Source: an uncultured Faecalibacterium sp.
Lineage (GTDB): Bacteria > Bacillota > Clostridia > Oscillospirales > Ruminococcaceae
Assembly: GCA_934547065.1 (NCBI GenBank)
Contig: CAKTEF010000020.1
Location: forward strand, 1 to 30,246
Direction of reading: 5' to 3'
Length of the DNA: 30,246 nt
Below the pieces are notes generated by a model, which saw only the letters and a program-made list of their open reading frames with translations, had not been told where the DNA came from and did no database searches. Every line of letters begins with the position of its first letter. Within the stretch, counting starts at the first letter, position 1. Both the position numbers and the translations under genes were made by a program. Positions 20,842 through 27,685 of the stretch are shown one piece after another.

Positions 20842-23181
20842 ATGACATTAAAAGAACTGAAGATCGGCGAAAGCGCAGTGATCCGCACGGTGGGCGGAAC
20901 GGGTGCGCTCCGCCAGCATTTTCTGGATATGGGCCTGATCCCCGGTGAAAGGGTCACGCTGGTCAAATTTGCACCCATGGGCGACCCCATGGAGCTGCAG
21001 ATCCATGGCTATGAGCTGACGCTGCGCCTGGATGATGCGGCGCAGATCGCGGTGGAACCGGCGGAAGCCCCGGCAAAGGCCCCGGCCCGGAAAGAACGCC
21101 GGATGGTGGAGCACCCCGGCCTTGGCGAGGGTGGACGCTACCACACCAAAAAGGGCGAACATCCCCTGCCGGACGGCACGGTGCTCACCTTTGCGCTGGC
21201 GGGCAACCAGAACTGCGGCAAGACCACCCTGTTCAACCAGCTTACCGGCTCCAACCAGCATGTGGGCAACTTCCCGGGTGTGACGGTGGACCGGAAAAGC
21301 GGTGCTATCCGGGAGCATCCGGACACCGAGGTGACCGATCTGCCCGGGATCTATTCCATGTCGCCCTACTCCAACGAGGAGATCGTGACCCGGCAGTTCA
21401 TCATCGGGGAAAAGCCCACCGGCATCATCAACATCGTGGATGCCACCAACATCGAGCGCAACCTGTACCTGACCATGCAGCTGATGGAGCTGGACACCCC
21501 CATGGTGCTGGCCCTGAACATGATGGACGAGGTGCGCGGCAACGGCGGCACCATCCGGATCAATGAGATGGAGTCCATGCTGGGCATTCCCGTGGTGCCC
21601 ATCTCGGCGGCCAAGAACGAGGGCGTGGAGGAACTGGTGGACCACGCCCTCCATGTGGCAAAGTATCAGGAGCGCCCCGGGCGGATGGATTTCTGCGGCG
21701 AGGACGACCACGGCGGCGCGGTGCATCGCTGCATCCATGGCATCATCCACCTCATCGAGGACCATGCCAAGGCGGCCGGGATCCCGGTACGCTTTGCGGC
21801 CACGAAGCTGGTGGAGGGCGATGCCCGCATCAAGGAAGCGCTGAAGCTGGACCGGAACGAACAGGAGATGATCGAGCACATCATCCTGCAGATGGAACAG
21901 GAGCGCGGGCTGGACCGCGCCGCCGCCATTGCGGATATGCGGTTCCATTTCATCCATCAGCTGGTCGATCAGACCGTGGTCAAGCCCCACCAGAGCAAGG
22001 AGCAACTGCGCAGCGCCCGGATCGACCGGGTCCTGACCGGAAAATACACGGCCATCCCGGCGTTCATCGGGATCATGGCGCTGGTGTTCTACCTGACGTT
22101 CAGCGTGATTGGAGCCGGGCTGCAAAGCCTGCTGGAAATGGGCATTGAGGCACTGACCACCCTGGTGGACAATGCGCTGACGGCGTGGAGCGTCAACCCG
22201 GCAGTCCACTCGCTGGTGATCGACGGGATCTTTACCGGTGTGGGCAGTGTGCTGAGCTTTTTGCCCATCATCGTCACGCTGTTTTTCTTCCTCTCGCTGC
22301 TGGAAGATACCGGATACATGGCCCGTGTGGCCTTTCTGATGGATAAGCTGCTGCGGCGCATCGGCCTTTCGGGCCGCAGCATCGTACCCATGCTCATCGG
22401 CTTTGGCTGCACGGTGCCGGGCGTGATGGCCAGCCGGACCCTGCCCTCAGAGCGGGACCGCAAAATGACCATCCTGCTCACCCCGTTCATGAGCTGCTCG
22501 GCCAAACTCCCCATTTACAGCCTGTTCTCCGTCACATTCTTCCCGGAGCACGCGGCCCTGGTGATGGTGGGCCTGTATTTCCTGGGCATTGCGGTGGGCA
22601 TCCTGGCGGCGTTCCTGCTCAAGGGCACGCTGTTCCGGGGCGAAGCGGTCCCCTTTGTGATGGAACTGCCCAACTACCGTCTGCCGGGTCTGAAAAATGT
22701 GTGCCAGCTGCTCTGGGAAAAGGCCCGCGATTTTCTGGAGCGGGCGTTCACCGTCATCTTCGTGGCGACCATCGTCATCTGGTTTTTGCAGAACTTTGAC
22801 CTGCAGCTTCGCCTGACAGCAGACCCGCAGAACAGCATCCTGGCCTTTGTGGCCAGCGGCATCGCGCCGCTGTTTGCGCCGCTTGGCTTCGCCGACTGGC
22901 GGGTGTCCACGGCCCTGATCACCGGCTTTATGGCCAAGGAAAGCGTCGTTTCCACCCTGACCATCCTGTTTGGCTCGGCGGCAGCACTGGGGGCTGCGCT
23001 CAGCCCGGCGCAGGCGGCTCCCCTGCTGGTGTTTTGCCTGCTCTACACGCCCTGCATCGCAGCGGTGGCATCGGTCCGGAGGGAGCTGGGCGGCCGCTGG
23101 GCTGCGGTCATGGTCCTGAATCAGTGCGCGGTGGCCTGGCTGGCAGCCTTTGTGGTGCGCCTGATCGCGCTGGCCGTCTGA
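20842..23181 (+). CDS. feoB: Ferrous iron transporter, FeoA-FeoB fusion
   Basis: 779 residues. Imports Fe2+ across the cytoplasmic membrane. Residues 1-75 form a complete FeoA SH3-like domain (LKIGESAVI, LRQHFLDMGLIPGE), joined by a basic/proline linker to FeoB. G-domain: G1 GNQNCGKTT (121-129), switch region HVGNFPGVTVD, G3 DLPGIYSM, G4 NMMD, G5 SAAKNEG. Membrane part from about residue 395, with both gate motifs (IGFGCTVPGVMAS and LVFCLLYTPCIAAVAS) and their conserved cysteines. No separate feoA or feoC is nearby. Likely supplies iron for the many iron-sulfur enzymes encoded in the window. Confidence 0.96.
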   Translation: MTLKELKIGESAVIRTVGGTGALRQHFLDMGLIPGERVTLVKFAPMGDPMELQIHGYELTLRLDDAAQIAVEPAEAPAKAPARKERRMVEHPGLGEGGRYHTKKGEHPLPDGTVLTFALAGNQNCGKTTLFNQLTGSNQHVGNFPGVTVDRKSGAIREHPDTEVTDLPGIYSMSPYSNEEIVTRQFIIGEKPTGIINIVDATNIERNLYLTMQLMELDTPMVLALNMMDEVRGNGGTIRINEMESMLGIPVVPISAAKNEGVEELVDHALHVAKYQERPGRMDFCGEDDHGGAVHRCIHGIIHLIEDHAKAAGIPVRFAATKLVEGDARIKEALKLDRNEQEMIEHIILQMEQERGLDRAAAIADMRFHFIHQLVDQTVVKPHQSKEQLRSARIDRVLTGKYTAIPAFIGIMALVFYLTFSVIGAGLQSLLEMGIEALTTLVDNALTAWSVNPAVHSLVIDGIFTGVGSVLSFLPIIVTLFFFLSLLEDTGYMARVAFLMDKLLRRIGLSGRSIVPMLIGFGCTVPGVMASRTLPSERDRKMTILLTPFMSCSAKLPIYSLFSVTFFPEHAALVMVGLYFLGIAVGILAAFLLKGTLFRGEAVPFVMELPNYRLPGLKNVCQLLWEKARDFLERAFTVIFVATIVIWFLQNFDLQLRLTADPQNSILAFVASGIAPLFAPLGFADWRVSTALITGFMAKESVVSTLTILFGSAAALGAALSPAQAAPLLVFCLLYTPCIAAVASVRRELGGRWAAVMVLNQCAVAWLAAFVVRLIALAV

Positions 23182-24050: not shown

Positions 24051-24064
24051 CAAGAATACGAAAA

Positions 24065-24104
24065 AAGGAACCCGCCCGGTGAGTGCATCCGGGCGGGTTC
24101 CTTT
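24065..24104 (+). terminator. TauE/SafE gene terminator
   Basis: GGAACCCGCCCGG (24067-24079) with CCGGGCGGGTTCC (24089-24101), A-run before and TTT after. Confidence 0.87.
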
Positions 24105-24107
24105 GCG

Positions 24108-24136
24108 TTGTTTCCTGTCAGATTTTGTGATATACT
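24108..24136 (+). promoter_or_regulatory. Promoter of small membrane peptide
   Basis: TTGTTT (24108-24113), 17-bp spacer, TATACT (24131-24136) with an extended TGA before it. Start near 24143. The leader has CTCCC/GGGAG (24158-24162/24169-24173), which covers part of the ribosome site. Confidence 0.75.
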
Positions 24137-24186
24137 TTTTGTGCTGCCCTTTACTTACTCCCGCAGCAGGGAGGAGGTGGATGGCG

Positions 24187-24285
24187 ATGGAATATCTCGT
24201 GAGTTTTTTAATCTCGGTCGGAGCACAGGTAGTCGGACATTTCCTGTGCAAGTGGCTTGACCCGGACATGAACAAGGGCGAGTAA
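24187..24285 (+). CDS. 32-residue membrane peptide, Fst-like type I toxin candidate
   Basis: Peptide MEYLVSFLISVGAQVVGH followed by FLCKWLDPDMNKGE. One hydrophobic helix (residues 3-21), then a short charged tail with KWLD, matching the length and plan of Fst-family toxins (33 residues, membrane helix then LDxxD-type tail). ATG 24187 lies nine bases after AGGAGG (24172-24177); ATG 24181 is too close to it. It has its own promoter, an SD-covering hairpin and a strong terminator. A convergent promoter downstream (24370-24397) could make an antisense RNA. The family assignment is inferred from architecture, not a search. It could instead be a membrane peptide with another role. Confidence 0.7.
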   Translation: MEYLVSFLISVGAQVVGHFLCKWLDPDMNKGE

Positions 24286-24292
24286 GCACGAG

Positions 24293-24329
24293 GCCCCCGG
24301 AGAGCGGACATCTCTCCGGGGGCTGTTTT
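24293..24329. terminator. Terminator shared by peptide mRNA and candidate antisense RNA
   Basis: GCCCCCGGAGAG (24293-24304) with CTCTCCGGGGGC (24312-24323), then TGTTTT on the + strand. The stem is also read by leftward transcription, but no T-run follows on that side. Confidence 0.8.
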
Positions 24330-24363
24330 GCGCGGATGGCTTAGAATCTCGTGAATTCTTTGC
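24293..24363 (-). ncRNA. Candidate antisense RNA (antitoxin) to the small peptide mRNA
   Basis: Predicted from the minus-strand promoter at 24370-24397. Its 5' end is complementary to 24346-24361, a near repeat of mRNA 24194-24209 (codons 3-8). That allows 16 consecutive pairs including two G-U. The left end is uncertain; it may stop in the shared stem or read on across the peptide gene. Confidence 0.5.
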
Positions 24364-24369
24364 ACTTCT

Positions 24370-24397
24370 AGTATATGCGATTCTTGAAAAAAGTCAA
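24370..24397 (-). promoter_or_regulatory. Convergent promoter for antisense RNA
   Basis: Minus strand TTGACT (24392-24397), 16-bp spacer, TATACT (24370-24375). It points away from trigger factor and toward the peptide gene, with no other gene to serve. Confidence 0.75.
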
Positions 24398-24433
24398 GTG
24401 GTACGCAAAAAGTTTACAGTTCCAACCAACGGC

Positions 24434-27608: not shown

Positions 27609-27685
27609 GCGTTGGTAGCTCAGCTGGATAGAGTGACTGACTACGAATCAGTAGGCCGGGGGTTCGAGTCCCTTCCATCGCACCA
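27609..27685 (+). tRNA. tRNA-Arg (anticodon ACG), integration target
   Basis: 77 nt with encoded CCA. Anticodon stem ACTGA/TCAGT around loop CTACGAA, giving ACG; TTCGAGT T-loop; D-arm GCTC/GAGT. The acceptor stem GCGTTGG/CCATCGC has one T-T mismatch at pair 4, and the T-stem has two G-U pairs, so the molecule is somewhat weakened. The copies of the 3' part at 29738 and 29841 have the same CCATCGC, so the odd base is T4 in the 5' half. From the anticodon loop onward it is duplicated at 29738-29784. Confidence 0.93.

Follow-up and report, generated by a model that had tools for sequence, protein, structure and literature searches.

The cassette at positions 24108-24397 of the window, by which we mean the whole 30,246-nucleotide stretch of DNA that was analysed, is very probably a chromosomal type I toxin-antitoxin locus of the par/Fst plan. 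It adjoins tig, the trigger factor gene, and its toxin is a peptide made of a transmembrane (TM) part and a charged tail. The locus is ordinary in its mechanism and less ordinary in its scale. We have high confidence that the window cassette works like par. The mechanism that we infer for it, from the two Faecalibacterium transcripts to the translation block, the differential stability, the toxicity and the reason why a chromosome keeps the cassette, would run as follows. A rightward mRNA would encode a 32-aa membrane peptide, and its leader would fold over the Shine-Dalgarno (SD) sequence. A short leftward RNA starting at about 24363 would copy the repeats DRb' and DRa' and the central hairpin, and would pair in trans with the repeats at the start site of the mRNA, so that translation would be blocked. 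If the cassette were lost, or if synthesis of the antitoxin dropped, the antitoxin would decay first, the peptide would be made and growth would stop. The parts of the cassette and of its surroundings are as follows.

24064..24104, both strands: perfect 16-bp hairpin behind the upstream gene
24108..24136, plus strand: toxin mRNA promoter, with a weak -35 (TTGTTT, 24108-24113) and a -10 (TATACT, 24131-24136), 8/12
near 24143, plus strand: toxin mRNA start, placed from the promoter
24158..24173, plus strand: SD hairpin, CTCCC (24158-24162) with GGGAG (24169-24173), in the minimum free energy fold; overlaps the first SD bases
24170..24179, plus strand: Shine-Dalgarno sequence GGAGGAGGTG, read from the sequence
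24179..24185, plus strand: DRa, mRNA copy GGATGGC, over the SD end and the first ATG
24187-24285, plus strand: toxin ORF MEYLVSFLISVGAQVVGHFLCKWLDPDMNKGE, 32 aa, stop codon 24283-24285, from the list of translated ORFs
24194..24209, plus strand: DRb, mRNA copy, codons 3-8 of the toxin
24287..24363, minus strand: predicted antitoxin RNA of about 77 nt, placed from the promoter position and the stem, and folded
24293..24323, both strands: central terminator hairpin, stem 24293-24304 / 24312-24323, 12/12 pairs, 7-nt loop
24334..24340, minus strand: DRa', antisense copy, matching GGATGGC
24346..24361, minus strand: DRb', antisense copy, at the predicted antisense 5' end
24370..24397, minus strand: antitoxin promoter TTGACT-16-TATACT, 10/12

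The original prediction, made from the letters of this DNA, had described a 32-residue helix-plus-charged-tail peptide with its own promoter, a hairpin partly hiding the SD, a strong terminator and a convergent near-consensus promoter. The ORF is present, and an in-frame ATG at 24181 offers an alternative start that would give a peptide of 34 aa. The sense promoter has a weak -35 and an extended -10, with TG one base 5' of TATACT; the CTCCC/GGGAG hairpin was found in the predicted fold, and the convergent promoter is where it had been placed. The strong terminator held in part: a stem with all 12 pairs follows the stop codon and would be expected to end both RNAs, but the leftward T-run behind it is poor (CTCGTGCTT), and a simple terminator scan of the window did not list the hairpin at 24293..24323. 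The U-turn motif (YUNR) was not seen by eye in the window terminator loops CGGACAU and AUGUCCG; according to passages of an Fst review, not all Fst homologues have this motif (PMC7472228). Elsewhere in the window, a 779-aa ORF at 20842-23181 has the look of a FeoA-FeoB fusion, judged by eye from its translation, and a tRNA gene lies at 27609-27682 (Rfam).

First, the repeats of the window cassette were compared. DRb and DRb' are identical at 14 of 16 positions, and because both mismatches become G-U in the duplex, 16 consecutive pairs would form, exactly as had been counted beforehand. The score of the window repeat was matched by none of 129 swaps and by 1 of 100 shuffles. The second and weaker repeat, DRa, which lies over the SD and the start codon, had been overlooked; taken alone it was not significant, with 5 of 60 swaps equally good. 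Predicted pairing between the two RNAs, which had been proposed as a check, was strong: the antisense 5' arm and the mRNA of the window gave -40.8 kcal/mol, whereas 50 arms swapped in from other loci averaged -19.1 and all fell short of the window's own value.

The anatomy was then examined across a set of cassettes gathered on the peptide alone, in which 232 of 289 model matches were kept (score of at least 20 and a start codon) and 188 were non-identical. Enough flank was available for 180 of these, which fell into 130 clusters by similarity of the start region. The data showed that repeats covary within loci. The mean own-repeat score was 13.7, compared with 7.3 for swapped and 7.2 for shuffled sequences, and in 92 of the 130 clusters the own repeat scored above all 129 swaps. 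One or both repeats outscored 59 or more of 60 swaps in 113/130 clusters, and DRa and DRb both reached that level in 48/130. Where significant, the median spans were -9 to +4 of the start codon for DRa and +8 to +22 for DRb, so that DRa is centred on the start codon and DRb covers codons 3-8. The order DRa' before DRb' was found in 64 of 67 cases, and the end of DRb' lay a median of 10 nt from the antisense -10 (n = 69), which is where the antisense RNA would have its 5' end. The predicted duplexes, calculated for 115 of the 130 clusters, averaged -38.3 for own and -18.8 for swapped pairs; the own duplex outdid 48 or more of its 50 swaps in 100 of the 115, and in 47 it outdid every one.

The promoters and the central stem also recurred. 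A leftward promoter of at least 10/12 was present in 71% of the family and in 4.6% of shuffles, and at a threshold of at least 9/12 the values were 92% and 28%; for rightward promoters they were 63% and 18%. The central stem was found in 128/130 clusters, and the sequence flanking it was rich in T (4.1 of 9 positions on the right and 4.4 of 9 on the left, compared with about 2.5-2.7). The leader was more stable than shuffled leaders in 122/130 clusters, but pairing of the SD exceeded that in shuffled leaders in only 84/130, and swapped leaders were as good in 43%. The probability that the SD is unpaired was 0.21, compared with 0.25 in shuffled leaders, and was lower in 82/130 clusters. Burial of the SD across the family is thus little better than chance. 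A leader alignment took in 15 of 19 and was inspected by eye. The search for relatives of the peptide that had been suggested bore out the reading as a par of pAD1 type locus, with the repeat, the convergent promoter and the stem recurring in the family. Two Fst-type loci, Lpt of L. paracasei and one annotated as Fst, served as positive controls; analysed by a similar script, both had this plan, with 0 of 60 swaps as good.

Next, the peptide itself was analyzed. In 131 ORFs with KWLD, pN was 0.185 and pS was 0.51, and pN was below pS in 467 of 471 pairs, which are not independent of one another; the toxin peptide of the family is under purifying selection. A tryptophan was found among the last 20 residues, between the TM helix and the charged C-terminus, in 167 of 180 family peptides, and it is W25 in the 34-aa form of the window peptide. 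The P/D/S/TXXXG motif of the TM part, which according to passages of PMC7472228 is present in the 'majority' of Fst/Ldr toxins, was found in one of its four forms in 58 of 180 family peptides, short of a majority. The PXXXG motif was present in 2 of 180 peptides of this branch, which we call 'CKWLD', compared with 6 of 6 in the Fst comparison set.

Neither Pfam nor NCBIfam assigned the window peptide to a family, their matches to its relatives were weak, and a PDB profile search with the peptide family gave no match. The curated Fst models PF13955 and NF033608 did not match the window peptide. Among 24 family members, PF13955 matched none and NF033608 matched one (E 0.12), and the cut-off was exceeded in 0 of 31 genomes; Lpt, a known Fst-type toxin, is itself below the cut-offs of both models. 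Alignment of the branch profile with the Fst profile by hhalign gave 57.6%. The real alignment scored 20.3; the best of 60 full shuffles scored 13.8, but when the TM part alone was shuffled, 13 of 60 reached 20.3. The profile similarity to Fst thus appears to rest on W-L-D and the charged tail. A further model, NF047374 of the C. difficile family (cut-off 60 bits), was rejected, since it matched 4 of 24 members with a best E of 0.0055 and was over its cut-off in 0 of 31 genomes.

The distribution of the peptide was patchy. The window peptide found matches at E<=0.01 in 10 of 31 Faecalibacterium genomes, with up to seven in one genome. A 24-row profile was used for wider draws of genomes, which overlap in part and were read at different cut-offs: it matched 34 of 297 genomes of the host's family at E<=0.01, where some of the matches fall within long ORFs. 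At E<=1e-5 it matched 26 of 394 genomes of the order, 20 of 391 of the class and 14 of 398 of the phylum. Several profile matches in these draws run across an in-frame stop, and may be the ends of shorter toxins or broken copies.

Plasmids and viruses carried the peptide as well. A tblastn search with the window peptide matched 72 plasmid records, 53 of them from Enterococcus (E<=1), and with an E. hirae member it matched 485 plasmid records at 772 places, 450 of them from Enterococcus (E<=0.01). Among 60 matches of the E. hirae member that were listed, none had an annotated gene underneath, one record being unannotated and the gene table incomplete. Three inspected plasmid copies were near rep, ParA or RelE/ParE genes, and others were near an IS6 transposase, a mobV relaxase, or an ABC transporter and hypothetical genes. 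Five phage records were matched in the peptide search, and three of these are inoviruses (L223, L224 and L253; Inoviridae by record, bajarodino viruses from rodent faeces), in which the cassette is present and not annotated as such. The other two were MT837713 and MT837624. A reading of MT837624 as a microvirus was dropped, because its genes by eye look like those of a chromosome and the same peptide occurs in a Faecalibacterium genome (L054). In IMG/VR the pattern YICKWLD was found in 67 stretches. Scoring took in 29 of 38 rows (eight had no start codon in range and one was cut), a few of which share one peptide, and in 28 of the 29 cassettes the own repeat outscored 59 or more of 60 swaps.

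We also compared 25 tig loci, all in records titled Faecalibacterium, and inspected 12 of the 25 sites; in two of the loci (L016 and L020) fewer than 250 bases lie beyond tig, so that a cassette could not show. The window is like Faecalibacterium DNA, its trigger factor sharing 90% identity with the F. hattorii protein. The peptide was found at the same place in one of the 25, F. prausnitzii CNCM I 4541 (L004). The original prediction had named loss of the repeat in relatives that keep the peptide as evidence against it. In this same-site relative (L004/L030) the letters of the repeat differ from those of the window (TACATCATCGAGTT), yet both own copies match, so the repeat was kept with changed letters. 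All 19 Faecalibacterium clusters likewise have a strong downstream repeat; in the family as a whole, 17 of 130 clusters do not, which speaks against the par/Fst reading. By eye, the same permease adjoins tig in the window and in L001, L004, L005, L007 and L008; among these six loci the cassette is present in two, a remnant in one and neither in three (L005, L007 and L008). The remnant is in F. hattorii (L001). An alignment of three loci at this site, in which L001 aligned to window positions 24290-24400, showed that the hairpin and the leftward promoter were kept and that the toxin ORF and its promoter were lost. That the toxin is gone and the antitoxin half is left is what a toxic gene would predict, in one case only.

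This last observation bears on the idea that the peptide does a harmless job in the cell, as a small conserved membrane protein under the control of a par-like antisense RNA. The chromosomal site of the window copy and the purifying selection acting on the peptide would suit such a protein. Its presence is patchy, however: 10 of the 31 Faecalibacterium genomes have it, and some genomes carry several copies. Plasmids and phages carry it too, and the deleted copy in L001 kept its antisense half. Furthermore, the plan closely matches that of Lpt, a tested toxin reported to be toxic in E. coli (PMC5608710). We therefore consider a non-toxic function unlikely, and the toxin of a par-type cassette remains the preferred reading.

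Several stretches carried more than one cassette. L205, L208, L203, L204, L212 and L220 have runs of 2 to 6 cassettes, many of them about 300-460 nt apart, and the largest arrays were in L205 (six cassettes) and L208 (four). In 12 stretches with several cassettes, the own antisense-mRNA pairing was the best in both row and column for 33 of 35, so the predicted pairing is orthogonal.

Among the 17 clusters with no strong downstream repeat, four (L066, L148, L151 and L076) have a repeat upstream, 97-153 nt before the start codon. In the coordinates of the oriented loci, these divergent loci are as follows.

about 1501: L066
about 1495: L148
about 1489: L151
about 1495: L076

In each of the four, the upstream repeat abuts a leftward promoter of 11-12/12, and a hairpin was seen beyond it by eye. 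A test of upstream repeats, which took in 126 of 130 clusters, showed that swapped upstream stretches reach a score of 13 in 2 of 1260. With longer upstream stretches, 1 to 4 of 40 swaps equalled each of the four loci, so that the adjoining promoter carries much of the case. To judge from this arrangement, the antitoxin half in these four loci looks to be upstream and divergent, perhaps as a leftover of a tandem pair. Six loci with upstream repeats included two, L173 and L174, that were rejected as tandem toxin paralogues. Of the other 13 clusters, some, such as L212 and L141, show a repeat once the limits are widened, and in some the match is to a neighbouring copy. A trans-acting divergent variant of par was not met in the literature searched.

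These loci also bear on a second alternative, in which the leftward RNA passes the central hairpin and reaches the hairpin at 24064-24104, so that silencing is by full-length cis-antisense and the repeats are by-products. The poor leftward T-run in the window speaks for it, as does the perfect leftward hairpin at 24064-24104: read on the minus strand, its stem closes with three T and is followed by three more, so it could stop leftward read-through. A full-length overlap, however, would not need repeats that are kept by covariation; T is enriched to the left of the stem family-wide; and in the four loci with an upstream repeat the leftward RNA would share only the repeats with the mRNA. Full-length silencing is thus quite improbable, and pairing in trans through the repeats is preferred.

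Decay of the window copy, such that it is no longer active, is also improbable, and slightly more so. The six permease-tig loci, with two cassettes, one remnant and three sites with neither, and the short DRa of the window would be compatible with decay, but the ORF, the SD, both promoters, the stem and the 16-pair DRb are all intact. A chance arrangement of a spurious small ORF, a fortuitous repeat and promoter and leftward read-through from tig is hardly credible, given that 130 clusters share the plan and have repeats matched to their own loci, and that pN is below pS. In its favour, tig runs leftward toward the cassette, and from tig to 24370 no terminator on the minus strand was listed by the scan.

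The par-type cassette of the window was compared with known systems. Passages of PMC7472228 describe the par/Fst plan as convergent promoters, a central bidirectional hairpin and DRa/DRb pairing over the translation start, and state that DR sequences are poorly conserved between loci and that two tested par loci gave no cross-protection. The cassettes here resemble par of pAD1 and the Fst/Ldr systems, as far as those are described there, in the two promoters, the hairpin and DRa and DRb over the translation start, and also in the peptide of about 33 aa with a TM part, the tryptophan before the charged tail and the variable letters of the DR sequences between loci. In contrast to par/Fst, the branch has CKWLD, rarely has PXXXG and has no matches to Fst models; it also forms tandem arrays and has four loci with the antitoxin half upstream. 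Lpt of Lacticaseibacillus plasmids (PMC5608710) has the same layout with a repeat over the start and first codons, but its peptide is of the PXXXG Fst type.

A link to pneumococcus came from Rfam. SpF66 (RF02442) corresponds to srn502/spd_sr109, a toxin mRNA with the antitoxin Srf-27, and srf-27/spd_sr109 and srf-28/spd_sr111 are tandem pneumococcal pairs downstream of fucR, according to four papers (PMC6212727, PMC9812572, PMC12323649, PMC3395615). In this literature, the toxin mRNA exceeded the antitoxin RNA in all tested conditions by RNA-seq and Northern blot, and the authors considered the system possibly 'on'; the D39 annotation files the pairs as Fst family by orthology (Fozo 2010), with srf-27 undetected there. 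The SpF66 covariance model matched plasmid loci of Enterococcus, Streptococcus and Lactococcus and IMG/VR contigs of the branch. Among 10 sources it matched L027 and L028; on 11 others it lay over the cassette above the gathering score in five and below it in four, and two gave no match. The loci with SpF66 matches were L027, L028, L275, L251, L248, L310 and L247. The Faecalibacterium sequences (the window, L030 and L220) do not reach the model. Its consensus line, read by eye, holds ugCAaAUGGCuaGAc, the codons for CKWLD. Since SpF66 both matches the branch and is a transcribed pneumococcal Fst mRNA, a transcribed member of the branch has already been filed under Fst. The pneumococcal pairs are alike in the SpF66 match and the tandem arrangement, whereas the hosts here are Clostridia. 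On the layout and the SpF66 link, the cassette may be filed as of the par/Fst kind, with common descent of the TM part left open.

CD2517.1 of C. difficile and its kin share a small TM peptide, a convergent antisense RNA, several copies per genome and highly specific antitoxins, but PMC6563280 and PMC7699646 describe toxins of 50-53 aa or 34-47 aa with a lysine-rich tail and overlapping genes. The term 'direct repeat' is absent from both texts.

The suggestion that the plan may be undescribed in such a genome was partly upheld. The plan is known, commensal Clostridia are named among Fst hosts in passages of PMC7472228, and a pneumococcal member is annotated as Fst; neither this locus nor the Clostridial branch, on the other hand, was found described in the open-access literature among the matches listed, and the branch may stand in the tables of Fozo 2010 and Weaver 2009. 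By titles and the starts of abstracts, no type I toxin-antitoxin locus of Faecalibacterium was indicated in that literature, and 'CKWLD' had only an unrelated occurrence. A 2019 review (PMC6563280) cites a single earlier search in which Fst-like sequences turned up in just two Clostridial species, and within Clostridia it reports experimental type I data for C. difficile only. Clostridial type I loci have thus been thought sparse by homology, and the branch here is numerous yet missed by curated models. What is new is this large 'CKWLD' branch in gut Clostridia, Enterococcus plasmids, inoviruses and viral contigs, together with the tandem orthogonal arrays and the four loci whose antitoxin half lies upstream in divergent orientation.

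A wider reading, which we hold to be evenly balanced between true and false, is that these gut Clostridia, Enterococcus plasmids, inoviruses and viral contigs share one large par-type pool that diversifies fast. In it the repeats would be an exchangeable address, paralogues would be mutually blind even in head-to-tail arrays, and the antitoxin could be moved upstream and made divergent, as in the four loci, where its pairing would be through the repeats alone. The tandem arrays of orthogonal pairs provide a natural data set on the divergence of antisense specificity, and with the divergent loci it can be asked directly if pairing of the repeats suffices for control when no terminator is shared. 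The 'sRNA' label of SpF66 in Rfam would be better changed to toxin mRNA.
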